A stretch of 64,000 nt of DNA from an uncultured Pseudomonadota bacterium (GTDB lineage Bacteria; Myxococcota_A; UBA796; JAFGLY01). Below the pieces are notes generated by a model, which was given only the letters and a program-made list of their open reading frames with translations, was not told where the DNA came from and made no database searches. Location: positions 1 to 64,000 of the forward strand of contig CALDOK010000003.1 in NCBI GenBank assembly GCA_937912125.1, read 5' to 3'. Positions within the stretch are counted from its first letter, which is position 1; the number at the start of each line of letters is the position of its first letter. Position numbers and translations under genes: made by a program. Below are positions 1 through 52,109 of the stretch, piece after piece.

Positions 1-767
1 ACCTTGAGCATCACGTTGGCGCCCGGGGTGGAGGTGATCGGGTAGGAGGTCTTGCCCACCAGGGGGATGGCCAGGTAGCCGTAGCTACGGCTGGGATCCT
101 GACGGTCGGCCACGGTGATGATGGCCACCTGGGGGTAGTTGACCTTGGGCGGTGTGAACAGCGCGGAGTACCGGCCGTTGCCCAGGTAGGTGAGGTTCGC
201 GATCTCGCCCGAGGTGGGGGCGAGCACCAGCGCCACGTCGGAGACGTCGCCCAGGTCGCCGCCGGTGAGCTGGATGTTGACCGTGGACGAGGTGTCCTGG
301 CCGAGCACGATCTGGGGCGGGTTGGCCGAGACGGTGAGCTGGTGGGACGCGGGGGCCAGCACGTTGAGCCCGTAGACCCTGGCGATGGGGGTCTTGTCGC
401 GCTTCTTGCCCTTGATGGCCAGCTCGACGGTGCGAGCGGCGTCGACCTCGGGAGGGGTGAAGCTGAACTCGTAGACGCCGCCGCCGAGCTCACGCAACAG
501 CGTGGCTGTGCCGCCGGTGGGCACGATCTTGGCGTTCAATCCCTCGAGGGGAGAGCCATCGGCCTCGAGCGCAATCAGCGAAAACTTCACGGGGGTTTTA
601 CCATCCCCGACGACCTGGTCGGCGGGGATGAGTTCCAGAAGACCACCCCCCTCGAAAACCGCCTGGCCGTAGGCGGGTGCGACAAGGGTGGCAGGCATGA
701 CTGCCCACGCGGCAAGCAGGGCGAGAGCGGTCAGCGAAAACCGCAGCCAACGTGCGAACAGGTACAT
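1..767 (-). CDS. Secreted Ig-like/invasin-like domain protein, C-terminus beyond window start (partial)
   Basis: Open frame from ATG at 767 (minus) to the window edge with no stop; N-terminus MYLFARWLRFSLTALALLAAWAVMPATLVAPAYGQA is a signal peptide; beta-rich 'LELIPADQVVGDGKTPVKFSLIALEADGSPLEG' and 'LTVSANPPQIVLGQDTSSTVNIQLTGGD' repeats; AGGAGG SD just upstream. Confidence 0.75.
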   Translation of the reverse strand, partial: MYLFARWLRFSLTALALLAAWAVMPATLVAPAYGQAVFEGGGLLELIPADQVVGDGKTPVKFSLIALEADGSPLEGLNAKIVPTGGTATLLRELGGGVYEFSFTPPEVDAARTVELAIKGKKRDKTPIARVYGLNVLAPASHQLTVSANPPQIVLGQDTSSTVNIQLTGGDLGDVSDVALVLAPTSGEIANLTYLGNGRYSALFTPPKVNYPQVAIITVADRQDPSRSYGYLAIPLVGKTSYPITSTPGANVMLK

Positions 768-819
768 CTTGGCGCCTCCTGGCATCTTCCCTCGAAGATC
801 GAACCCGGTACAGTCCGGG

Positions 820-833
820 GCCGTACGTACGGC
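820..833. promoter_or_regulatory. 14-bp perfect palindrome GCCGTACGTACGGC in divergent intergenic region
   Basis: Direct reading; lies between gene starts at 767 (-) and 931 (+). Confidence 0.4.
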
Positions 834-930
834 GGAGTCCAGCGCAGGGACCCGCAGGGGTTACAATACTAACCCACCCGCCACCCCCCGTTGCGGCTGT
901 GAGTCATCCCACGGAGCACAACTTCCACCG

Positions 931-1311
931 ATGCACCTGGCCGACGAGATCGCAGCAGTTGGGCTGACCCCTGCCATGCGCAGGGTCTTCAACCGCGGCT
1001 TGAGCGCGGTGGCCTGTGCGGACGGCTCCATGGACGAGCCGGAGCGCCTGGCCATCGAGACCCTGCTGGGGGGCAAGCTGGGCGGCAACGCCCCACGCGA
1101 ACCCCTCGAGTCCCTCTGGCCCCACGCCGAGCTCTTCGTGCGCGCCTGCATCCACGTCGCCCTCGTCGACGGCCACTACCGCGTCGAAGAAGCCCGCGCC
1201 GTCAGCCTCATCGCCCACCGCCTGGGCCTGAGCGCCCAGCGGCTGGCTGCCCTCGAGAAGCAGGTGTTCGACAAGCTCGAGGCCGCGTCCCAGCAGCGCA
1301 GGCGGGCTTGA
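931..1311 (+). CDS. TerB-like domain protein
   Basis: MHLADEIAAVGLTPAMRRVFNRGLSAVACADGSMDEPERLAIETLLGG...FVRACIHVALVDGHYRVEEARAVSLIAHRLGLS; ADG..DEPE / DGHYRVEE pattern typical of TerB-like helical domains. Confidence 0.65.
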   Translation: MHLADEIAAVGLTPAMRRVFNRGLSAVACADGSMDEPERLAIETLLGGKLGGNAPREPLESLWPHAELFVRACIHVALVDGHYRVEEARAVSLIAHRLGLSAQRLAALEKQVFDKLEAASQQRRRA

Positions 1312-1358
1312 GAGCCCGACCCACGCGACCATCACCTCCCCCCCCCTCCGGAACCCCC

Positions 1359-1730
1359 ATGTCCACACCCGACAAGCCCAGCCCGGACCTGATGATCGCG
1401 GCCCTGGTCGACCCGCGCCACAAGCACATCTTCGACAAGGCCCTCGAGAAGGCCTCTGAACGAAGCGATGTGGGCGTCTACAACTTCCTGCACACCTGCC
1501 CGGCCTCCCACGGCGACCGCCTGGTGCTCGAGCTGGCCTTCGCATGCTGGCGCGGCTACGGCCCGGCCATCCAGATCGACCAGCTATGGGGCATGGAGCC
1601 CAAGGTCGCCGAGCGCGTGCTCGCGGGGCTGGCCTTGGTCATGGGCGGAGCCGACGCCCCCGCGCTGCTCGCCAAGGCCGCCGAGGGCTGCCAGGCCCTG
1701 CTGCCTCGAGAGCCCGAAGCCAAAGACTAG
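1359..1730 (+). CDS. Hypothetical protein
   Basis: ORF MSTPDKPSPDLMIAALVDPRHKHIFDKALEKASERSDVGVYNFLHTCPASHGDRL..., same strand as and close to the TerB-like gene. Confidence 0.65.
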   Translation: MSTPDKPSPDLMIAALVDPRHKHIFDKALEKASERSDVGVYNFLHTCPASHGDRLVLELAFACWRGYGPAIQIDQLWGMEPKVAERVLAGLALVMGGADAPALLAKAAEGCQALLPREPEAKD

Positions 1731-1733
1731 CTT

Positions 1734-3131
1734 TCAGTTCTCGATCCTGTGCAGCGCGGCCCGCAGGGCGCCCACATCGGGGTGCTGCTGGAGCGCGATG
1801 ACGTAGAGCTCCCTCGCCGCCAGGGCTTCGTTGCGGCGCTCGTACAGGTCGCCAAGGGTGAGCGCCACCAGCGGATCGCCAGGCACCACCTGCCACGCCA
1901 TGCGGCCGTAGCCGATGGCCTGTTGAGCATCGCCGACGCTGGCGTACAGCTGCATCAGGAAGACCAGCGCGCCGGGGTGACGGGCATCCTTGCCGTAGGC
2001 GTAGTGGGCAGCGTGGGCGGCCGCCTTCTTGTCGCCCGCGTCCGCGTAGAGGCGCGCGACCTCGAGCCAGAGGTCGGGGGCGTCATTCCCCCCGATGAGC
2101 AGCGAAGCGCGCATCGCCGCCGCCGCCTGAGGCTTGTGCCCAGCCTGCTCGTGGGCCGACGCCAGCGCGTGGCAGAAGGAGGCCGCCGCTTCGTTCTCGA
2201 AGCCCATGGTGTGGACCGCGTTGTCCTCGTCGTAGCTGTTGGCCTGCTCCCAGGACACCCGGTAGACATCGGTCTGCAGCGCGCTCTCGAGGAACTGGAT
2301 GGCGCGGGCGAACTCGCCCCTGGCCAGGAACATCTGGCCCAGCAGGCCCTGGTTCTCCCCATCGTCGGGCCGCATGGCCACGGAGATGGTCATGGCCCGC
2401 AGCGCGCCCTCCTGGTCGCCCACCTGCTGGGCACGGCCCGCCTGCTCCGTCCACTGCTCGAGCACCTCGGCGCCGTGGCTCTGAAGCTCGCGCACGGTGT
2501 CCTTGCGCTGCGCTGCACGCTCTCCGAGCAAGAACACGGCCGCGACGTCACCCAACGCCGCCACGTCATCGGTCTGAGTGGCGAAGGCCCGCTCGGCCGC
2601 CTCGAGGGCGCGGGGCATCTCACCCGCGCGGGCGAACAGCCAGGCCAGGTAGGCGATGCGTGGTCCGGTGGGCTCGATCTCGACGACCTTCTTCATGGCC
2701 ACCACGGCCTGGCGCGGCTGGCCGCGGACCAGGAACTCCCGAGCCGACAGCTCGAGGAAGTCGGGGTTGGCCGGCTGGGCCTCGAGGGCCACCTTGATCA
2801 GGGCGCGAGCCTCATCGACCTGCCCGGTGCGCACCAGGGCCTCGATGAGCAGAGCGGCGGCACCATCTTCCTCTTCGGCGAGGGCCCTGCGCGCCGGGGC
2901 CACCGCATCGTCGGGGTGACCGTCAGCCAGCAGCGCGCGAGCATACCCAAGCTGGAACGAGGACTTGGTGGGTCGCTTCTCGCAAGCCTTGCGGTAGCAC
3001 CGCGCCGCGTGGGTCGTGCGGCCCTCAGTGAGAAAGGTCTCGCCCTGCTTGGCGAGCTTCTTGGCTCCACAGCCCCCGAGGACCAGCACCGCGACCAGTG
3101 CCAATGCCGCCCGCGAGACGTGGGCGCCCAC
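1734..3131 (-). CDS. TPR-repeat lipoprotein
   Basis: GTG start at 3131 overlapping the upstream stop; signal VSRAALALVAVLVLGGCG with lipobox; multiple TPR units (ALLIEALVRTGQVDEARALIKVALEAQPANPDFLELSAREFL...). Confidence 0.8.
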   Translation of the reverse strand: MGAHVSRAALALVAVLVLGGCGAKKLAKQGETFLTEGRTTHAARCYRKACEKRPTKSSFQLGYARALLADGHPDDAVAPARRALAEEEDGAAALLIEALVRTGQVDEARALIKVALEAQPANPDFLELSAREFLVRGQPRQAVVAMKKVVEIEPTGPRIAYLAWLFARAGEMPRALEAAERAFATQTDDVAALGDVAAVFLLGERAAQRKDTVRELQSHGAEVLEQWTEQAGRAQQVGDQEGALRAMTISVAMRPDDGENQGLLGQMFLARGEFARAIQFLESALQTDVYRVSWEQANSYDEDNAVHTMGFENEAAASFCHALASAHEQAGHKPQAAAAMRASLLIGGNDAPDLWLEVARLYADAGDKKAAAHAAHYAYGKDARHPGALVFLMQLYASVGDAQQAIGYGRMAWQVVPGDPLVALTLGDLYERRNEALAARELYVIALQQHPDVGALRAALHRIEN

Positions 3132-40815: not shown

Positions 40816-43444
40816 GCACCCACACCAGCCCGCGGGCGCCGTCCACCACCACCTCCTGGCCGTCCTGGAGCTGCTGGGTGGCGCCGCGCACGTTGACCAC
40901 CATGGGCAGCTCGTACTCCCGAGCCACCACCGCGCCGTGGGACAGCTGGCTGCCCAGCTCGAGCACCAGCCCCGCGATGACCGGGAACAGCGGCGTCCAG
41001 CCCGGGTCCACTGCCCGCGCAACCAGGATCTCTCCCGGGCGCAGCCGCTGGGCCCCCTCCATGTCCGCCACCACCCGCACCGGGCCCCGCGCGACCCCCG
41101 GGGAGGTCCCCAGGCCCGTCAGGCGGCGGCCGCCTTGCTCGGCCAGCACGGGCTCATCCTCCACCAGGAAGTCGGGAGGCGAGCGCTGGAGCTGCCGGGC
41201 GAAGCGCGCCGAGCGCCGCTCGGCCTCGGCGCGACAGGGCTCGGCCTCGAGGCGCCCGGCCACCAGGGCCTCGACCTGATCGGCCTCGAGGAAGCGGATG
41301 TCCTCGGCGCGCGCCAGGGCCCCTCGCTCCACAGCCCAGCGGCCGATGACCAGGTAGTTGCGCTTGACCGCGTAGAGCAGGCGATCGAAGTGGTAGCGCT
41401 GGTTCTCACGCAGCAACAGGTAGCGGCGGGTGAGCTGCACCAGGTAGCGCACCGTGGCGCGCCGCAGGGGGTGGTCCACCCGGGCCAGCAGCCGCTCGAG
41501 GGCCCGTTCTCCTTGCTGGGACAGCTCGTGGGCCCGCACCCGGGGATCGGCCTCCCCGGCCTCGATGCTGTGGCGCAGCAGGGCCAGCACCCGCTCCGGG
41601 CGCTCGTCCCAGCGAGGGCTCATGATCTCCCAGCTGGCGTCGGAGCGGTGGCCGTGGCGCGCGAGGAACGGGGCCAGCGCGGCCGCGAAGGGGCTGCCGG
41701 GTGCGGGCATCGCGCTCAGGTCTGCGCCCAGCTCTCGAGCACGCTGGGCCAGCAGCCACAGGTCGTGGTGGGTCACGATGGTCAGGTTGTGCTCGGGACA
41801 GCGCAGCACCTCGCCCGCCAGCCGCTCGCTGCCCGGCCCCAGCCAGACCGCCAGCAGCCCCTCGACCACCTGGTACCAGAGGTTGGCGAAGAGCAGGCTG
41901 GTGACGTGGACCTTGACGTAGCCCCGGGCCAGCTCCATGCCCGCCCGAGCCCGCTCCAGGGCCTGGACCGGATCGCTGGCCGCAGGCGGCGGGCTGACCT
42001 GGCGTGGAACCTCGCGCTCGAGCAGACGCTCGAGGCGATCCCAGGCCTTGTGGTTGGTCAAGGGGTTCCAGCGGAAGCGCCTCCAGCGGCGCTCCTCGAA
42101 GGTCTCCTGCAGGATGGCCGCGTAGACCCGGACCCCGGGCGCCCCGGCGAAGCGGGTCAGCCACGCCCGCTCCTCGTCCGGCGGCAGCATGTCCATCACG
42201 AAGCGCGGCGGTGGCAGGCCGGGCAGCTTGAAGGCCAGGTGCCGGAACACGGTGGCGTTGATGTAGGGCGCGCCGTCCACCAGGCGCAGGGCAGGCTCGC
42301 CCCCCAGCCAAGCCCGAGTGGTGCGGGGATAGGCGATGAAGTGTTCGAGCAGGGGCCGCACCAGGGACCAGCCCAGGGGCGTGGCGGGCTCGCTCCAGCG
42401 CTCGCCGATGAAGCGGCGGGTCCACAGGGTGCAAGCGCTGCGGTTGGGCGTGGGGGAGGTGGTGATGGGGCGGGACTGCACCAGCCAGGGCTCGCCCAGG
42501 GCGTCCACGGCCCACTCCACGTCCTGAGGGCAGCCGCCCATGGCCTCGGCCCGCAGGGCCAGCCGGCACAGGCGCAGCAGCATGTCGTCGTCGAGCTTGG
42601 GGCTCTGCTGCAGAGACGCGGGCACCGCCCGCCACTCCACCCCGTCGGCCGCCAGGACCAGCTCGCGCTCTTGGGGCTGCACCGAGCGCTCGAGGGGCTC
42701 GAGCCGCAGCCGGGCGGCCAGACGCTGCAGGGGATCGGGCAGGCGCCGCGGGCGCTGCACCAGGTAGTGGTCGGGAACCACATGGCCCCCCACCAGGGCC
42801 TCGCCCAGGCCCCAGCAGGCCTCGACGGTCATCTGACGCCAGGAGCCGGTCATGGCGTTGACCGAGAAGGTGACCCCCGAGATCCGGGCGCGCACCAGGC
42901 GCTGCACCACCAGCGCCATGCCCGGCCCATCGGCGCGGCCCTCGCGCAGCTGGCGGCGCAGCCCCGGCCGGCCTTCGGCCTGACGTGTATAGGCGAGCAC
43001 GCGATCGTCGAAGGCGCTGGCCCAGCACGCCAGCACGGCCCGCTCCAGCCCGTCGCCCGGGCGCACGCCGATCTCGGTGCGGAACAGGCCGGCGAAGCTC
43101 TGATCCCCCGCGTCCTCGTCCACCCCCGAGGACCGCACCACCAGCTCGGGCCCCAGCCCCGGGGCCTGGGCGCGCAGGGCCGCGGCCAGCGCGGGGGGCA
43201 GCGGCGCGGCCAGGACCGCGGCCCGTAGGGCCCTGGCCCGCTGGGGGTCGGGCAGCCGGCCGAGCCGACGCGCGCTCTTCCACAGCCCGTTGTGCCTCAG
43301 GAAGTCCTGGAAGGCCTCGACAGGGATCACCACCCCCGCGGGCACGGGCAGCCCGCGCTCCGCCATGCGGGCCAGGCCCATGGCCTTGCCGCCGACACGC
43401 CGACGCCCTAGCCGGGCGGCCTGATCGAGGGGAACGAGGTGCAT
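40808..43444 (-). CDS. PEP-synthase / rifampin-phosphotransferase-like protein (ATP-grasp + swivelling His domain)
   Basis: N-term LGRRRVGGKAMGLARMAERGLPVPAGVVIPVEAF (PPDK_N); C-term GVARGPVRVVADMEGAQRLRPGEILVARAVDPGWTPLFPVIAGLVLELGSQLSHGAVVAREYELPMVVNV (phospho-His domain). Confidence 0.88.
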   Translation of the reverse strand: MHLVPLDQAARLGRRRVGGKAMGLARMAERGLPVPAGVVIPVEAFQDFLRHNGLWKSARRLGRLPDPQRARALRAAVLAAPLPPALAAALRAQAPGLGPELVVRSSGVDEDAGDQSFAGLFRTEIGVRPGDGLERAVLACWASAFDDRVLAYTRQAEGRPGLRRQLREGRADGPGMALVVQRLVRARISGVTFSVNAMTGSWRQMTVEACWGLGEALVGGHVVPDHYLVQRPRRLPDPLQRLAARLRLEPLERSVQPQERELVLAADGVEWRAVPASLQQSPKLDDDMLLRLCRLALRAEAMGGCPQDVEWAVDALGEPWLVQSRPITTSPTPNRSACTLWTRRFIGERWSEPATPLGWSLVRPLLEHFIAYPRTTRAWLGGEPALRLVDGAPYINATVFRHLAFKLPGLPPPRFVMDMLPPDEERAWLTRFAGAPGVRVYAAILQETFEERRWRRFRWNPLTNHKAWDRLERLLEREVPRQVSPPPAASDPVQALERARAGMELARGYVKVHVTSLLFANLWYQVVEGLLAVWLGPGSERLAGEVLRCPEHNLTIVTHHDLWLLAQRARELGADLSAMPAPGSPFAAALAPFLARHGHRSDASWEIMSPRWDERPERVLALLRHSIEAGEADPRVRAHELSQQGERALERLLARVDHPLRRATVRYLVQLTRRYLLLRENQRYHFDRLLYAVKRNYLVIGRWAVERGALARAEDIRFLEADQVEALVAGRLEAEPCRAEAERRSARFARQLQRSPPDFLVEDEPVLAEQGGRRLTGLGTSPGVARGPVRVVADMEGAQRLRPGEILVARAVDPGWTPLFPVIAGLVLELGSQLSHGAVVAREYELPMVVNVRGATQQLQDGQEVVVDGARGLVWVHG

Positions 43445-43519
43445 GGGGCCCACTATCACCGGAGGCGATATCAGAGATCCGTCTGCACAGAATCCCAGCC
43501 GCAGCTCAGGAGAATCACT

Positions 43520-44950
43520 CTGGCCTCCCTCACCCCACCCTTCGCGCTCTCGGTGCTGGTGCCGGTCTACAACGAGCGCTTCCTGGTGGAGAAGTCCATC
43601 CTGCGGGCCCTGGACTTCGAGGACCCCCGGGTGGCCCGCTTGGAGGTCATCGCGGTGGACGATGGCTCCACCGACGGCTCGGCGCAGATCCTCGAGCGCA
43701 TGGCCCGAGAACACCCGCGGCTGCAGGTGATCCTCCACCCCGCCAACCGAGGCAAGGGGGCCGCGGTGCGCTCGGCCATCGCCGCGGCCACCGGCGATCT
43801 GTGCGTGATCCACGACGCCGATCTCGAGTACCACCCCGCCGACTGGGCGCGCCTGCTCACCCCCTTCGTCGAGGCCCAGGCCGACGCAGTCTACGGCTCT
43901 CGCTTCCTGTCGTCCGACTACCGCAGGGTCCTGTACTACCGCCACACCATCGGCAACCGGCTGCTCACCCTGGGCTCCAACCTGGCCACCGACCTCAACC
44001 TGACCGACATGGAGACCTGCTACAAGATGGTCCGCACCAGCTTGCTGCAGTCCATCCCCATCCGCTCGGACGACTTCGGCTTCGAGCCCGAGATCACCGC
44101 CAAGCTGGCCAAGCGCGGGGCCGTGATCTTCGAGGTCCCCATCCGCTACTCGGGGCGCACCTACCTCGAGGGCAAGAAGATCACCTGGAAGCACGGGGTC
44201 AAGGCCGTGGCCGACATCCTGCGCTGGAAGCTGCGGGACGACCTGTACAACGACGACGAGTACGGCGCCGAGTTCCTGCGCAGCCTCACCCGCATCCGCA
44301 ACATCCACCGCTGGATGGCCGACCTGCTGCTGCCCTGGGTGGGGGACTCGGTGCTCGAGCTTGGCGCTGGCATGGGATCGGTCACCATCCACCTGCTACC
44401 CCGAGGCCGCTACGTCGCATCGGACGTCAACCCCCACTACCTGGACTACCTGCACAAGCTGGCCCTGGGCCGACCGTACATGCAGGTCCAGGAGCTGGAT
44501 CTACAGCGCACCGAGCACTTCGAGGCCGTGGCGGGCGAGTTCGACACCGTGATCTGCCTCAACGTGCTCGAGCACGTTCCCGACGAGCAGTTGGCCCTGG
44601 CCAACATCGGCCGCGCCATGGCCCCCGGCGGGCGGGCCATCATCCTGGTGCCCCAGGGCCCCTGGCTGTTCAGCTCCCTGGACCGGGTGCTGGGCCACCA
44701 CCGGCGCTACACCCGCGACCAGCTGCAGCGGGTGCTCGAGCGGGCGGGCTTCGAGCTCGAGGCCATGCGCGAGTTCAACAAGATCGGCGTGCTGGGCTGG
44801 CTGCTCAACGGCCGCATCCTGCAGCGCGAGCACCTCTCCCAGATCCAGCTCAAGGCCCTCAACACCGCCATCCCCGTCATCGGCGGGGCCGACCACCTGG
44901 CCCCCTGGCAGGGCCTGAGCCTGGTGGCGGTCGTGCGCCGGGCCCCCTGA
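43520..44950 (+). CDS. GT2 (DPM1-like) glycosyltransferase fused to class I SAM methyltransferase
   Basis: SVLVPVYNERFLVEKSILRAL...VIAVDDGSTDGS...DLCVIHDADLEYHP...GSRF; then VLELGAGMGSVTIHLLPRGRYVASDVNPHYLD...FDTVICLNVLEHVPDEQLALANIGRAMAPGGRAIILVPQ. Tracked ORF begins with GTG at 43439; a CTG at 43520 with SD CAGGAG is an alternative start. Confidence 0.85.
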   Translation: MASLTPPFALSVLVPVYNERFLVEKSILRALDFEDPRVARLEVIAVDDGSTDGSAQILERMAREHPRLQVILHPANRGKGAAVRSAIAAATGDLCVIHDADLEYHPADWARLLTPFVEAQADAVYGSRFLSSDYRRVLYYRHTIGNRLLTLGSNLATDLNLTDMETCYKMVRTSLLQSIPIRSDDFGFEPEITAKLAKRGAVIFEVPIRYSGRTYLEGKKITWKHGVKAVADILRWKLRDDLYNDDEYGAEFLRSLTRIRNIHRWMADLLLPWVGDSVLELGAGMGSVTIHLLPRGRYVASDVNPHYLDYLHKLALGRPYMQVQELDLQRTEHFEAVAGEFDTVICLNVLEHVPDEQLALANIGRAMAPGGRAIILVPQGPWLFSSLDRVLGHHRRYTRDQLQRVLERAGFELEAMREFNKIGVLGWLLNGRILQREHLSQIQLKALNTAIPVIGGADHLAPWQGLSLVAVVRRAP

Positions 44951-44966
44951 CACCCACGGAGTTTCC

Positions 44967-46103
44967 ATGGCCTGGTTCGGCAAGTCCAACGAGCAGCAGC
45001 CCGACCCGCCCCAGGCCGCGCCCGAGCTGTTCTGCAGCTTCTGCGGCAAGAGCCAGCGCCATGTGAGCAAGCTCATCGCCGGCCCAGAGGTCTGGATCTG
45101 CGACGGCTGCGTGATGCTGTGCAGGGACATCATCGAAGAGAACCTGCCCCCCGGCGGAGCCGAGATCCCCAGCCCGCCGCCGGCCATGGCCGAGCTGCGG
45201 GCCGGCCTCGACGAGCGCTGCGTCGGCCTCGACGCACCCAAGCGGGCCCTGCTCGGTGCGCTGGGCCTGCACCTGGCGCGGCTGCAGGAAGGCGCCCCCG
45301 ACCTGCGCCCCCCCGTGCTGCTGCTGGTGGGCCCCCACGGAAGCGGAAAGAGCAGCTTGCTCGATGCCCTCACCAAGCTCACCAGGCTCCCGGCACACCA
45401 CGCCGACGTCAACCGGCTCAGCGCCACCGGGTACGTCGGGCTCGACCTGGAGAACCTGCTCTGGGAGCTGGTGCGCCAGGCCGCCAAGGACTTCCGTTTG
45501 GCCGAGACCGGGGTGCTGGCCTTGGACGGCCTGCACCGCATCGCCACCGCCGCACCTCCCCGAGGCTCCGCCCGGGACATCGGCGGAGCGGAGGTCCAGC
45601 GTGAGCTGCTGCGCGTGCTCGAGGGCAGGCAGACCGAGGTGGCCGGTTCCACCATGCGGCACCCCCAGCAAGCCGCCGAGCCCTTCTGGTGTCACCGGCT
45701 GCTCATCGTCATGGCCGCAGCGTACGAGGGCCTGCCCGAGGGCGAGGCCGCCCAGCGGACCTTCCTGGCGGAGCGCGGTGTACAGCGGGAGCTGCTGGCC
45801 CGGGTCGACCGGATCGTCCAGGTGCCCGCACCCGACGCCGACCACCTGCGGGCGGTGCTGACCGACCCCACCGCGGGGCTGCTGCCGGGCCAGCTCGCGG
45901 CCCTCGAGGCCCTGGGCCACACCGTGCAGGTCCGAGAGGACGCCATCGACGCCATGGTCGAGCAGGCCGCCGACAGCCCCGACGGTGCCTGGACGCTTCG
46001 ACACGCCATGACGAGCCTGAGCGTCGCGGCGGCCCAAGCCGAAGGCCCGCTGGTGGTCACGGCCGCGGACGTGCGAGGATGGGCGGGCGAGCAGCCCACC
46101 TGA
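44967..46103 (+). CDS. Degenerate ClpX-like AAA+ protein with intact zinc-binding domain
   Basis: CSFCGKSQRHVSKLIAGPEVWICDGCVMLCRDII (ClpX ZBD), Walker A GPHGSGKSSL, pore loop GYVG, but Walker B GVLALDGLHRIA (E lost), no IGF loop, GAW in place of sensor-2 GAR. Confidence 0.9.
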   Translation: MAWFGKSNEQQPDPPQAAPELFCSFCGKSQRHVSKLIAGPEVWICDGCVMLCRDIIEENLPPGGAEIPSPPPAMAELRAGLDERCVGLDAPKRALLGALGLHLARLQEGAPDLRPPVLLLVGPHGSGKSSLLDALTKLTRLPAHHADVNRLSATGYVGLDLENLLWELVRQAAKDFRLAETGVLALDGLHRIATAAPPRGSARDIGGAEVQRELLRVLEGRQTEVAGSTMRHPQQAAEPFWCHRLLIVMAAAYEGLPEGEAAQRTFLAERGVQRELLARVDRIVQVPAPDADHLRAVLTDPTAGLLPGQLAALEALGHTVQVREDAIDAMVEQAADSPDGAWTLRHAMTSLSVAAAQAEGPLVVTAADVRGWAGEQPT

Positions 46104-46116
46104 CCAGGGAGCCCCC

Positions 46117-46962
46117 ATGCCCGTCCCCCCCGCCCTGGCCGGCTACCTGGCCTCCCGCATGCTGCGCGCCGAGACCTACGAGCACGTGCGGGGGCTGCGC
46201 TTCGCCGACGCGGGCCACGGCTACGATGCCTTCGGGCTGCATCCCGCGTTCGTGGCCATGGGCCTGGGGCTCACCCGCTTCTTCTACGAGAAGTACTTCC
46301 GGGTGATCTCCACCGGCGCCCACCACATCCCCGACAGCGGCGGGGCCATCCTGGCGGGCAACCACAGCGGCACCATCCCCATCGACGGCATGATGCTGTG
46401 GACCGACGTGGTGCGCCAGAGCGATCCGCCGCGCGTACCCCGGGCCGTGGCCGACTACTTCGTGCCCATGCTGCCGGTGGTGGGCACCCTGTTCGCCCGC
46501 GGCGGCGTGGTGGCCGGCAGCCGCGGCAACGTGCGCCAGCTGCTGGATGCCGGCAACCTGATGATGATCTTCCCCGAGGGCGTGCCCGGCATCGGCAAGA
46601 ACTTCCGCGACCGCTACAAGCTGCGCCCCTTCCGGGTGGGCCACGCAGAGCTGGCCATCCGCCACCGGGTGCCGGTGATCCCCGTGGGCATCATCGGCCC
46701 CGAGGAGCAGATGCCCCAGATCGCCCGCATCGAAGGCATCAGCCTGTTCGGCGTTCCCTACATCCCCATCACGCTGACCCCCCTGCCCATGCCGGTGCGC
46801 TACCACATCCACTACGGGGCCCCCATCCCCCTGCACAAGGACTACCGGCGCAACCAGGCCGACGACCCCGAGGTGGTGGCCGAGGCCGCGGCCCGGGTCC
46901 AGGCCGCGGTCCAGGAGCTGATCGACGCGGGCCTGAAGCAGCGCCAGGGGGTGTTCCGATGA
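46117..46962 (+). CDS. Lysophospholipid acyltransferase-like protein
   Basis: GGAILAGNHSGTIPIDGMML...VGTLFARGGVVAGSRGNVRQLLDAGNLMMIFPEGVPGIGKNFRDRYKLRPF. Confidence 0.88.
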   Translation: MPVPPALAGYLASRMLRAETYEHVRGLRFADAGHGYDAFGLHPAFVAMGLGLTRFFYEKYFRVISTGAHHIPDSGGAILAGNHSGTIPIDGMMLWTDVVRQSDPPRVPRAVADYFVPMLPVVGTLFARGGVVAGSRGNVRQLLDAGNLMMIFPEGVPGIGKNFRDRYKLRPFRVGHAELAIRHRVPVIPVGIIGPEEQMPQIARIEGISLFGVPYIPITLTPLPMPVRYHIHYGAPIPLHKDYRRNQADDPEVVAEAAARVQAAVQELIDAGLKQRQGVFR

Positions 46963-47942
46963 GCTCGGTGCTGGTCACCGGCGCCTCGAGCACCATCGGC
47001 GAGCGCCTGATCCGATCCCTGCTGGCCGACACCAGCATCGACCACGTGCTGGCGGTGGGCTTCGAGCCCCTCGAGTCGGCCCTGCCCTTCTCCCAGTCCA
47101 ACCGGCTCACCTACCTGCAGGTCGACATGGGCCGCAGCCGCAACATCCGCAGCCTGCTCTTCGGCCCGGCCCGCGACCTGGGGGTGGAGACCATCTTCCA
47201 CACGGCCCTGGTGGACAACGCGGCGGGCACCGGCAACCGGGTCCACAAGATCAATGTCGAGTCCACCCGCCAGATCCTCGAGCTGGCCGAGCGCCACCCC
47301 ACCATCCGCAAGCTGGTGTACCGCTCCTTCGCCGAGGTCTACCAGATCCAGGCCGACCTGCCGGCGCTGATCGAGGAAGCCCACCCCCTGAACCTGGCCA
47401 GCGGTGCCCCCCAGTGGATCCGCGACCGGGTCGAGGCCGATCTCACCGTCTGCGCGGCCATGGGCCTGTCCCGGCTGCGCATCGTGGTGCTGCGCTGCGC
47501 CGAGGTGCTGGCCCAGGGCTGCGGAAGCCAGCTGTTCGACTACCTCGAGTCGCCCATCTGCCTGCGCCCCGGCGGCTACAACCCCATGATCAACGTGCTG
47601 AGCGTCAGCGACCTGGTGCAGGCCATGGAGCAGGCTCACAACTCCTCGGTCCAGGGCGTGTTCAACATCCCGGGCAAGGACACCCTGCCCCTGTCCACCG
47701 CCATCCTCAAGTGGGGGCGGGTGGGCATCCCGGTGCCGGGCAACTGGCTCACCCCCATCTACGCCTGGAGGCGTCGCGTGCGGGGCCACGACTTCCGCTT
47801 CGGCATGAACCGTCGCCGCTTCACCTACAGCGGCATCCTGGACGGCGTACGAGCCAAGAAGGTGCTGGGCTACGCGCCCCAGACCGCCATCGACTGGCCC
47901 CTGCCCATCAGCGAGGCGTGGGGCCCGGGCTGGAAGGGATAG
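46959..47942 (+). CDS. NAD-dependent epimerase/dehydratase (SDR) family protein
   Basis: MSSVLVTGASSTIGERLIRSLL; translationally coupled (ATGA) to the acyltransferase. Confidence 0.88.
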   Translation: MSSVLVTGASSTIGERLIRSLLADTSIDHVLAVGFEPLESALPFSQSNRLTYLQVDMGRSRNIRSLLFGPARDLGVETIFHTALVDNAAGTGNRVHKINVESTRQILELAERHPTIRKLVYRSFAEVYQIQADLPALIEEAHPLNLASGAPQWIRDRVEADLTVCAAMGLSRLRIVVLRCAEVLAQGCGSQLFDYLESPICLRPGGYNPMINVLSVSDLVQAMEQAHNSSVQGVFNIPGKDTLPLSTAILKWGRVGIPVPGNWLTPIYAWRRRVRGHDFRFGMNRRRFTYSGILDGVRAKKVLGYAPQTAIDWPLPISEAWGPGWKG

Positions 47943-48236: not shown

Positions 48237-49919
48237 ATGCAGGTCCAACCCGACAACCCGATCATCGTCCAGGGCGACGGTAAGGTCATCCTGGAGACCA
48301 AGCACCGGCGCTATGCGGGCGCCCGGGACTTCCTCGCTCGCTTCGCCGAGCTCGAGGCTTCCCCGGCTCATCTCCACACCTACAGGATCTCGCCGCTGTC
48401 CCTGTGGAACGCGGCCAGCGCGGGCATGGGCACCGCCGAGATCCTCGACGGGCTGCGCTCGTTCTCGAAGTTCGACATCCCCGGCGATGTGGTCCAGACC
48501 ATCGAAGAGACCATCGAGCGCTTCGGCCTGGTCAAGCTGCTTCCCCACCCCACCGCCCCCCGGCGCTACATCGTGGTCCACTGCGAGACCGCCTACGTAG
48601 CCAAGCTGATCTCGCATGAGCCCAGCGCGCAGGAGCTCATGAAGAGCGAGGGTCGCAAGGGCCCCTGGGTCATCGAGGCGGGCCACCGCGGCATCTTCAA
48701 GCAGCGCCTGCTCCAGGCCGGCTGGCCGGTCGAAGACCTGGCGGGTTTCCTGCCCGGGGCGGCCCTCGAGGTGAAGCTACGCAACGAGACCCGCACCACC
48801 GAAGACCCCTTCAAGGTGCGGCACTACCAGTGGCTGTCGGTACACCGCTGGTACCAGGGCGGCCAAGCCGCCGGTGGCCACGGCGTGGTGGTGCTGCCCT
48901 GCGGCGCCGGCAAGACCATCGTGGCCATGGCCGCCATGTCGGTCATCAACACCCACACCCTGATCCTGGCCACCAACCAGGCCGCGGTGAACCAGTGGGA
49001 GCGCGAGCTGCTCGAGCGCACCTGGCTGACCAAAGATCAGGTGGGCACCTACACGGGCGAGCGCAAAGAGATCAAGCCGGTCACCATCGCCACCTACCAG
49101 ATCCTCACCTGGCGCCGCTCCAAGGATGTGGACTTCGAGCACCTGCACATCTTCCGCGACCACGACTGGGGCCTGCTGATCTACGACGAGGTGCACCTGC
49201 TGCCCGCCCCGGTCTTCGGGGCCACGGCCGAGCTGCAGGGTCGCCGCCGCCTGGGCCTCACCGCCACCCTGGTCCGCGAGGACGGCCGCGAAGGGGACGT
49301 CTTCTCCCTGGTGGGCCCCAAGCGCTTCGACATGCCCTGGCAGGATCTCGAGCGCGAGGGCTTCATCGCGGAGGCCCGCTGCTGGGAAGTCCGCGTGCCC
49401 TTCCGCAACGGCGAAGAGCTCCGCTACGAGCGCGCCAGCGAGAACGAGAAGTTCCGTATGGCCGCCCTGAACCCGGCCAAGCTGCGGGTGGTGCGCGACC
49501 TGATCAAGCGCCACGCCGACGACAACGTCCTGGTCATCGGCACCTACCTCGAGCAGCTCCACATCATCGCCCGCGAGCTCCGCGCCCCCCTGATCACAGG
49601 GCAGACCCCCCAGGGCCGTCGCGAAGAGCTCTTCGGCAAGTTCCGCACCGGTGAGATCAAGCTGCTGGTGGTGTCCAAGGTGGCCAACTTCAGCATCGAT
49701 CTGCCCGACGCCAACGTGGCCATCCAGGTCTCCGGCAGCTTCGGCTCCCGCCAGGAAGAGGCCCAGCGCCTGGGCCGCATCCTGCGCCCGAAAGAAGCCG
49801 GCGCCGACTGGTACACCGTGATCACCGGCGACACCAAAGAACAAGACTTCGCCCACAAGCGCCAGCTCTTCCTCACGGAACAGGGCTATCGCTACTCCAT
49901 CGATGACCGGATGGCGTGA
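48237..49919 (+). CDS. XPB/ERCC3-type DNA helicase
   Basis: Walker A LPCGAGKT, Walker B LLIYDEVHLLPA, GLTATLVREDGREGDVFSLVGPKRF, VSGSFGSRQEEAQRLGRILRPK. Confidence 0.93.
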   Translation: MQVQPDNPIIVQGDGKVILETKHRRYAGARDFLARFAELEASPAHLHTYRISPLSLWNAASAGMGTAEILDGLRSFSKFDIPGDVVQTIEETIERFGLVKLLPHPTAPRRYIVVHCETAYVAKLISHEPSAQELMKSEGRKGPWVIEAGHRGIFKQRLLQAGWPVEDLAGFLPGAALEVKLRNETRTTEDPFKVRHYQWLSVHRWYQGGQAAGGHGVVVLPCGAGKTIVAMAAMSVINTHTLILATNQAAVNQWERELLERTWLTKDQVGTYTGERKEIKPVTIATYQILTWRRSKDVDFEHLHIFRDHDWGLLIYDEVHLLPAPVFGATAELQGRRRLGLTATLVREDGREGDVFSLVGPKRFDMPWQDLEREGFIAEARCWEVRVPFRNGEELRYERASENEKFRMAALNPAKLRVVRDLIKRHADDNVLVIGTYLEQLHIIARELRAPLITGQTPQGRREELFGKFRTGEIKLLVVSKVANFSIDLPDANVAIQVSGSFGSRQEEAQRLGRILRPKEAGADWYTVITGDTKEQDFAHKRQLFLTEQGYRYSIDDRMA

Positions 49920-49994: not shown

Positions 49995-52109
49995 ATGTCA
50001 TCGAGACGCCATCGCCGCGGCCGCCGCAACCAACAGAGTGAGCCCGCGGTCGCCCTGGCCAACACGGGGCGCAACCCCCAGCGCCACCGCAGCCGCAGAC
50101 GCCGCAACCGCCCATCGGGTGGGCTCGCCCGCCGCAGGCGCCTCAGCCGCAACGAGATGGAGGGCCTGGGCGAGTACTTCCTGCGCATGCCCGAGCCTTT
50201 GCTCTCGGCCTTCTACCGGGCCCTGGGCGGACAGCCCACACGGGTCACCAGCCGCGATCGTATGATCCAGCTGGCGGTCCGGGCCGTGGCCCAGGGATCG
50301 CGCCTGGGTTCCCTGCTCAAGGGGCTGCACGACCGGGATCGTCAGGCCCTGGCCATCCTGATCCAGTGCGGCGGGCTGGCCCACGCCAACGAGTTCCACC
50401 GCGAGCTCTTCTTGTCCCTGGGCGGCCACGACAACGAGTGGCGCCGGGTGATGCAGCGCCTGGGCGAGCGGGGCATGGTCTTCGCCACCGAGACCCGCGA
50501 CGACGAGTTCTTCTACACGGTGCCCCACCCCCTGGTGGACCACCTGGTGGAGATCCTCAAGTCCGACATGGTGCTGCCCATCTTCGCCAACGACGAGATC
50601 GCGGTTGTGGACGAGCGCCCCTTTTGTCCGCCCCTCGATTTCTCGATCACCACGCTGGCCACCTACATGGACCAGCGCCCGCCGCGGCTCACCCAGCGCC
50701 AGGAGATCTACAAGGTCCACAAGGAAGAGATGGACGGGTTCTTCGCGCAGCTGTGGGGCTCCGACTCCGAGCTGTTCAACCTGCACATCGACTTCCTGAT
50801 GCTCCACAGCATGGTGGAGCTGCGCGGCGACCGCGTCAGCGTCAACCGCGAGTCGGTCGAGCAGTGGCTCAACCTGGACTCCGAAGACCAGCGCGAGCTG
50901 ATCTTCCACGCCCTCGAGCAGCGCTTCCCCCACGCCGAGTGGATCCTGTGGGCTGTGGCCGACGGCGAGGGCGCCTGGATTCCCGAGAAGCCGCTGTCGG
51001 CCCTGTACCGCCGCTGGCGCCGGGGCGAAGACTGGCGCAAGCGCTTCCAGCAGGGCCTGTTCGCCAGCGGTCGCACCCACGAGCGCGAGAGCTTCGGCTT
51101 CGCGCCGCTGGTCAACACCGGCATGCTCGACCTGGGCACCTGGGGCCGCGAGACGTTCTACCGCCTCAGCTCCCGAGCCCAGCACCTGCTCTTCCCCCCC
51201 GAGGACGACGGGTTCTCCCAGTTCTACCTCACCCCCAGCTTCGAGATCATGGCCCCGGCCGGGCTGGCGCCCGTGCTGCTGGCGCGCATCGGTGAGCTGG
51301 CCGAGCTCACCGGCTGCGACCGCGCCAACACCTACAAGGTCAGCGAGGCCACCATCGAGCAGGCCCTGTCCCGCGGCTGGCGTCGGGACGACGTGCTCGA
51401 CTTCTTGCGGGACTACAGCCAGATCGGCTTGCCCGAGAACGTCGAGCAGACCCTGCGCGGCTGGATGGGCCACCACGGCGACGTGGAGTTCCACGACGTG
51501 GTGCTGCTCACGGTGCACCGCTCGGCCATCCGCAAGCTCGAGACCCACAAGAAGCTCAAGCCCCTGCTGCTGCACCGCTTCGCCCCGGGCATGTACGCCG
51601 TGGACCGCAACCGCCTGGACGAGGTACGCCAGACCCTGGCCGGCGCAGGCTTCCACCCCAACGACGAGCTGCGCGCCTACCCGGCCAGCCAGGGGTCTGT
51701 CCAAGCCCGCGAGCGCCTCGAGAAGGTGGTGGCCGAGATCCGCGAGGCCAGTGAGGATCCACTGGCCCGCGCCCAGGCGGAGGACACCCCGCCCGAAGAG
51801 CTCCACCCCGTGCCGGGCTCGGGCATCCGCGACCGCAAGACCCGCCGCGGCCGGTCCACCCTGCCCCCCAAGACCACCCCCGAGCAGGCCGACGCCGCCG
51901 TGCGTGAAGCGCTCACAGACGGCAAGAACCTCGAGATGGTCTACGTCACCCGCGACGACAAGCACACCCTCACCAAGGTGGCCCCCGAGCGCCTGGCCAT
52001 CAACCGCGAGGGCCTGCCCGTGCTGGTGGCCCGCAACCTCGACCGTGACGAGCGGCTCACCTACCGCATGTCCCAGATCGAGCGCATCCGCACCATCCCG
52101 GTGGCCTAA
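49995..52109 (+). CDS. Helicase-associated (Helicase_C_3-like) protein with WYL-like C-terminus
   Basis: Arg-rich N-tail; FYRALGGQPTRVTSRDRMIQLAVRAV...LFPPEDDGFSQFYLTPSFEIMAPAGLAPVLLARIGELAELTGCDRANTYKVSEATIEQALSRGWRRDDVLDFLRDYS; C-term LEMVYVTRDDKHTLTKVAPERLAINREGLPVLVARNLDRDERLTYRMSQIERIRTI. Confidence 0.8.
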   Translation: MSSRRHRRGRRNQQSEPAVALANTGRNPQRHRSRRRRNRPSGGLARRRRLSRNEMEGLGEYFLRMPEPLLSAFYRALGGQPTRVTSRDRMIQLAVRAVAQGSRLGSLLKGLHDRDRQALAILIQCGGLAHANEFHRELFLSLGGHDNEWRRVMQRLGERGMVFATETRDDEFFYTVPHPLVDHLVEILKSDMVLPIFANDEIAVVDERPFCPPLDFSITTLATYMDQRPPRLTQRQEIYKVHKEEMDGFFAQLWGSDSELFNLHIDFLMLHSMVELRGDRVSVNRESVEQWLNLDSEDQRELIFHALEQRFPHAEWILWAVADGEGAWIPEKPLSALYRRWRRGEDWRKRFQQGLFASGRTHERESFGFAPLVNTGMLDLGTWGRETFYRLSSRAQHLLFPPEDDGFSQFYLTPSFEIMAPAGLAPVLLARIGELAELTGCDRANTYKVSEATIEQALSRGWRRDDVLDFLRDYSQIGLPENVEQTLRGWMGHHGDVEFHDVVLLTVHRSAIRKLETHKKLKPLLLHRFAPGMYAVDRNRLDEVRQTLAGAGFHPNDELRAYPASQGSVQARERLEKVVAEIREASEDPLARAQAEDTPPEELHPVPGSGIRDRKTRRGRSTLPPKTTPEQADAAVREALTDGKNLEMVYVTRDDKHTLTKVAPERLAINREGLPVLVARNLDRDERLTYRMSQIERIRTIPVA

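Follow-up and report, generated by a model that had tools for sequence, protein, structure and literature searches.

The window, by which we mean the whole stretch of 64,000 nucleotides of DNA analysed here, contains a gene, termed pseudo-clpX in the following, whose product is, as judged from its sequence, a conserved paralog of ClpX (Table 1). The reading frame starts with ATG, and it is taken to be coding since its GC contents at the three codon positions (0.78/0.50/0.92) resemble those of the adjoining genes. The DNA comes from an uncultured bacterium that apparently belongs to the Myxococcota. The contig is 115.8 kb long, and the gene therefore does not sit on a stray fragment; the assembly comprises 9.27 Mb in 527 contigs, and is 98.9% complete with 5.2% contamination.

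As the original prediction had it, pseudo-clpX lies between a GT2-methyltransferase and an acyltransferase/epimerase pair, and not beside clpP: the clpP-clpX1-lon cluster of this genome is found on a different contig (C334). The four genes form a tight run. The neighbourhood is not that of clpX or clpP, and the window gene and its two orthologs (described below) have no neighbourhood in common. A conserved operon partner can be ruled out, as the three gene contexts differ and the upstream GT2-methyltransferase is not kept in the orthologs. In one of these (G275:C315, L177:203-4146) the pseudo-clpX stop codon overlaps the start (ATGA) of a gene for a HEAT-repeat-like protein of 939 aa, and a second HEAT protein is encoded next; neither the window genome (G000) nor that of the other ortholog (G024) has a match to the 939-aa partner. 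Further downstream in the window, a bacterial repair helicase of the XPB type is encoded at 48237-49919 (797 bits to NF045503). The gene that comes 75 nt after it, at 49995-52109, is that of a WYL-domain protein whose Helicase_C_3 domain is XPB N-terminal-like, and the two may form a helicase-regulator pair.

Table 1. Pseudo-clpX, the motifs of its product and its neighbouring genes (positions in the window; residue numbers of E. coli ClpX, except where marked aa)
Feature	Position	Strand	Basis
GT2 glycosyltransferase-methyltransferase fusion, upstream operon neighbour	43439..44950	+	16-nt gap to pseudo-clpX; context only
GGAG, likely ribosome-binding site, 5 nt before ATG	44958..44961	+	sequence
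pseudo-clpX gene, 378 aa	44967..46103	+	ORF, family matches, codon-position GC, AlphaFold2 pLDDT 88.6
ClpX C4 zinc-binding domain, aa 22-58	45030..45140	+	PF06689; 18/20 canonical-invariant positions kept in 3/3 orthologs
Walker A GPHGSGKS (K125 kept; next residue L127 -> S)	45330..45353	+	alignment
Pore-1 loop GYVG	45429..45440	+	invariant in trio and canonical ClpX
Degenerate Walker B VLALDG (D184 kept, E185->G)	45513..45530	+	alignment; same in both orthologs
RKH-loop remnant MRHPQQ, K229 deleted	45654..45671	+	alignment; same deletion in both orthologs
Site of missing ClpP-docking IGF loop region	45735..45752	+	alignment; absent in 3/3 orthologs
E...R helix: sensor-I* Glu E303 and arginine finger R307, kept	45789..45803	+	alignment; roles per PMC7112951
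Degenerate sensor-2 GAWTLR (R370->W)	45984..46001	+	alignment; GAW in 3/3 orthologs
PlsC-type acyltransferase, downstream operon neighbour	46117..46962	+	13-nt gap after pseudo-clpX; context only
NAD-dependent epimerase, downstream neighbour	46959..47942	+	start overlaps acyltransferase (ATGA); context only

Family assignment and motif content

The N-terminus of pseudo-ClpX matches the zf-C4_ClpX family (PF06689, E=1.8e-16), as expected from the zinc-binding domain read there originally, and is followed by a ClpX-type AAA+ module, which places the protein in the ClpX family by homology. The NCBIfam ClpX models NF003745 and TIGR00382 match at E values of 3e-50 and 2e-42, with scores (171 and 146 bits) far below their cut-offs for functional equivalogs (359 and 371 bits). 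Identity to canonical ClpX is about 27-32%. The closest PDB sequence matches are ClpX; the AlphaFold2 model is confident (pLDDT 88.6, pTM 0.78) and its PDB fold matches, among those listed, are all ClpX. HslU is a related AAA+ unfoldase, but gives a weaker match and lacks the zinc domain; the HslU-like gene of the window genome is on contig C410. With catalytic residues lost consistently across orthologs and the fold retained, pseudo-ClpX can be classed as an AAA+ pseudo-ATPase.

The trio of pseudo-ClpX and its two orthologs was aligned with 77 canonical ClpX sequences (74 from loci of this phylum, that of E. coli, which served as reference and for numbering, and the two of the window genome). 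With canonical ClpX, such as E. coli ClpX and Myxococcus xanthus ClpX1, pseudo-ClpX shares the C4 zinc domain, AAA+ large and small domains, Walker A, GYVG, pore-2, arginine finger and fold. It differs in having E185G, R370W and L127S/A, in deletion of the IGF loop and of K229, in a short C-terminus and in the absence of an adjoining clpP. All three proteins carry the same losses, namely E185G, R370W, L127 replaced by S/A/A, and deletion of K229 and of the IGF loop with its flank, and all three retain K125, Y153 (GYVG, to G155), D184, E303, R307 and the zinc cysteines. The canonical sequences are invariant (77/77) at K125, Y153, D184, E185, E303, R307 and R370, and in their IGF loops G269 is present in 77/77 and F270 in 76/77.

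The motifs that had been read from the window alone are all present, and most of the changes described in them are borne out by this alignment: Walker A and the GYVG pore loop are kept, the catalytic Glu of Walker B has become Gly, and the sensor-2 Arg of GAR has become Trp. Two readings need amendment. The IGF loop is indeed missing, but the deficit is wider than the loop, the whole region of residues ~257-295 being shortened; and the RKH-like segment MRHPQQ is present, but is not a conserved RKH owing to the one-residue deletion of K229. The loss of L127 after Walker A was not part of the original prediction. Among 133 ClpX sequences scanned for motifs, phage ClpX included, three had D-G in Walker B, and these, the trio, were also the only ones with GAW. 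Walker B D187 is lost as well (H/Q/Q), so that no acid directly after the Walker B Asp is available to replace E185.

The roles of these residues are known from E. coli ClpX (PMC7112951). The E185Q variant does not hydrolyse ATP but retains nucleotide, ClpP and substrate binding, and its substrate binding is stable; L127A and D184A severely inhibit hydrolysis; and in R370K hydrolysis is abolished or nucleotide binding weakened. The arginine finger is R307, and its helix also bears E303, a sensor-I-like residue; together they could activate hydrolysis in the neighbouring subunit. The IGF loops provide most ClpP contacts. Mapped from E. coli in this way, the lost elements of pseudo-ClpX serve hydrolysis in its own subunit and ClpP docking, and the kept ones serve ATP binding, substrate grip and the active site of the neighbour.

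Conservation is uneven along the protein. Counted over positions that hardly vary in canonical ClpX, the trio retains 18/20 in the zinc domain, against 31/102 for the large and 4/21 for the small AAA+ domain, and identity is 64-72% in the zinc domain versus 28-40% in the large AAA+ domain. Within the large domain, Walker A, pore-1 G152-G155, D157, E159, D184, E303 and R307 are among the positions retained, as are R200, D201, G204, V207 and Q208 of the pore-2 segment.

Orthologs, distribution and canonical Clp genes

The two orthologs, at 39-44% identity, are encoded in other metagenome-assembled genomes (MAGs) of the phylum. One (G024:C653, 336 aa, 41-44% identity) comes from another family of the same order as the window genome, and scored 612 bits versus at most 201 for any other match in 65 genomes of the order; a class-wide search (73 genomes) added no member, pseudo-ClpX being present in 2/73. 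The other (G275:C315, 374 aa) belongs to another class and, scored with a two-sequence profile in a phylum sample of 379 genomes, reached 278 bits, with the next match at 220 bits or below. Another class (318 genomes) yielded no member at E <= 1e-78. When 85,488 species genomes were scanned by pattern, an approach that may miss divergent members, the same two orthologs came up (CAKZKQ010000315.1 and CALGIB010000653.1, both from MAGs), and otherwise distant relatives; of these, the two that were read, L180 and L181, which rank above the weaker L182 and L183, were rejected as ordinary DE-type relatives without a zinc domain. The family is rare and patchy, with three known genomes, all of them drafts or MAGs.

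An intact Walker B or sensor-2 in an ortholog would have pointed to a sequencing error in the window, but both orthologs carry the identical losses. A tree places the trio on one side of a branch with an SH-aLRT value of 99, but its end branches are very long (8-10 changes per column), and the shared substitutions and deletions, and not the tree, are therefore the ground for a single origin of the trio. A phage or plasmid origin was ruled out, as listed phage and plasmid matches are 25-32% identical and none reaches 60%; a second scan of viral contigs found no relative. A defence origin was rejected too: PADLOC gave weak hits, at 22 bits at best, most of them P-loop matches.

An intact clpX was to be looked for elsewhere in the genome, and there are two: one in the canonical clpP-clpX-lon cluster on C334 and a second canonical ClpX on C326. 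All three pseudo-ClpX genomes carry canonical ClpX and ClpP, the ClpX of G024 being a fragment at a contig edge. The second canonical ClpX of the window genome (C326, L007:1471-2727, minus strand) has KRL instead of RKH, as do 9/77 canonical ClpX; this brings to mind the change of R to K reported in ClpX2 of M. xanthus.

Putative role in mixed ClpX rings

ClpX has been studied as a homohexamer, and the needs of the ring for active subunits and IGF loops have been probed with engineered E185Q, R370K and IGF variants. We consider, with chances a shade below even, that pseudo-ClpX is a conserved ATPase-dead ClpX paralog, or pseudo-unfoldase, which binds ATP without hydrolysing it and works with ClpX in mixed rings. 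A protein that does not hydrolyse ATP or dock ClpP and yet keeps its substrate loops had been proposed from the window alone, as a trap, an adaptor or a hetero-oligomer partner of ClpX; the motifs, and two orthologs with the same losses, lend support to that general description. Since the ATP-burning and ClpP-docking parts are lost, and the gripping and neighbour-contact parts kept, pseudo-ClpX probably regulates or re-targets normal ClpX. Among the three options the kept arginine finger and E303 lean towards the ring partner; a partner subunit of the canonical ClpX that each genome carries would also be the simplest mechanism, and the motif pattern suggests that it is probably a regulatory subunit of mixed rings that weakens ClpP docking.

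Such a subunit would bind ATP through its P-loop and Mg-binding Asp, but would not hydrolyse it, and would assemble with the canonical ClpX of the same genome via zinc-domain and/or AAA+ ring contacts. It would lend its arginine finger and E303 to the adjoining active subunit, and its pore loop would grip substrate. As it would offer ClpP no docking loop, mixed rings may bind ClpP more weakly and work as an unfoldase or chaperone instead of a protease, or their choice of substrate may differ because the RKH loop is altered. In its strongest form, which is possible but rather doubtful, the proposal is of a switch: with ATP permanently bound, pseudo-ClpX would mix into ClpX rings, lend its arginine finger and E303 and remove docking loops, thereby turning a fraction of ClpX from a protease into a non-degrading unfoldase with different substrate choice.

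Several other explanations have to be weighed. A decaying gene, or an artefact of sequencing or assembly, might be read into the fast divergence and the rare, patchy distribution, but is scarcely credible, as the reading frame is intact in each of the three genomes and the specific losses and retentions are the same in all of them, the codon-position GC is host-like and the ClpX-like structure model is confident; for practical purposes the orthologs with identical losses rule out a sequencing error or pseudogene. Very improbable too is that pseudo-ClpX still hydrolyses ATP via a non-canonical catalytic base. A fully dead site would not usually keep Walker A, the Mg-binding Asp, E303 and the arginine finger, as this one does, yet no acidic residue directly after the Walker B Asp is conserved in 3/3 (D187 being H/Q/Q), and L127 and R370, each of which is needed in E. 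coli ClpX (PMC7112951), are lost too.

The remaining two explanations accept a dead ATPase, and differ from the mixed ring in where it would act. As an adaptor or anti-adaptor, pseudo-ClpX would dimerise through its zinc domain with those of ClpX, or capture ClpX adaptors or substrates, the dead AAA+ module serving as an ATP-switched scaffold outside the ring. That the zinc domain is by far the best conserved part speaks for this, as do the IGF loss and the divergence of AAA+ interfaces, which suit a non-ring role; we nonetheless hold it to be less than likely, because pore-1 GYVG, pore-2 RD-G-VQ and the E303/R307 helix would be needless outside a ring and yet are invariant in 3/3. An independent homo-oligomeric trap or chaperone, holding substrates via GYVG loops in an ATP-bound ring of its own without ClpX or ClpP, would account for the kept Walker A, D184 and pore loops, and recalls the stable substrate binding of the E. 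coli E185Q state (PMC7112951). This we consider unlikely: a static ring gains little from E303 and the arginine finger, although both contact the interface ATP, and the loss of sensor-2 may weaken ATP binding. The mixed-ring reading also has its difficulties, as the low numbers of invariants kept in the large and small domains (31/102 and 4/21) mean that ring interfaces may have diverged as well. At the background rate of 31/102, both E303 and R307 would be kept by chance in ~9% of cases (about 1 in 11), and their joint retention is no more than suggestive.

Known systems offer partial parallels to the mixed ring. M. xanthus has three ClpX, and its extra copies can be deleted, with phenotypes of their own (PMC11423568). 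ClpX2 and ClpX3 resemble pseudo-ClpX as extra clpX copies of a myxobacterium located away from clpP, and neither is described there as Walker-B-dead; ClpX2, however, is 64.8% identical to E. coli ClpX, and the divergent ClpX3 was ruled out as the same protein because it lacks the zinc domain that pseudo-ClpX keeps (PMC11423568). In single-chain hexamers with engineered E185Q/R370K subunits, the same two residues are inactivated as in pseudo-ClpX, and rings that include inactivated subunits keep working provided that some of the others are active (PMC7112951; PMC3711915), hexamers with only two active subunits running at ~30% (PMC7112951). These subunits are laboratory mutants with IGF loops, whereas pseudo-ClpX is a natural, separate and conserved gene. 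The TorsinA activators LAP1 and LULL1 are a functional precedent, in that an active AAA+ protein receives an arginine finger from an ATPase-dead AAA+-like one; they belong to another family, lack Walker A/B and pore loops, and act in the eukaryotic ER (PMC4999309).

We found no description of a natural Walker-B-dead ClpX paralog in our searches of an open-access library. Nature has apparently fixed the equivalents of the engineered ClpX mutations together in one conserved gene, kept beside normal ClpX. If pseudo-ClpX assembles with ClpX, it would constitute a natural test of mixed-ring function, and of the way in which bacteria could uncouple unfolding from degradation; if the switch proved true, a bacterial homomeric unfoldase would become a regulated heteromer.

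ClpX-like zinc fingers also occur in another setting in these genomes. Close to the C-terminus of a TPR-type protein of the window genome (G000:C277:36199-36438; L004, ORF 1-1776, plus strand) are two C4 zinc fingers that resemble that of ClpX and are arranged in tandem, CTACGRTSSDAHHLMAGGKAVICDQCV and CSVCHRGAFEARGLYQYSGVEICNHCL; the protein has at least 590 aa, and no AAA+ domain is seen in its sequence. In G024:C1015, a frame of 780 aa (L218) has a zinc-finger match of a similar kind, and the two proteins are possible mimics of the ClpX zinc domain.
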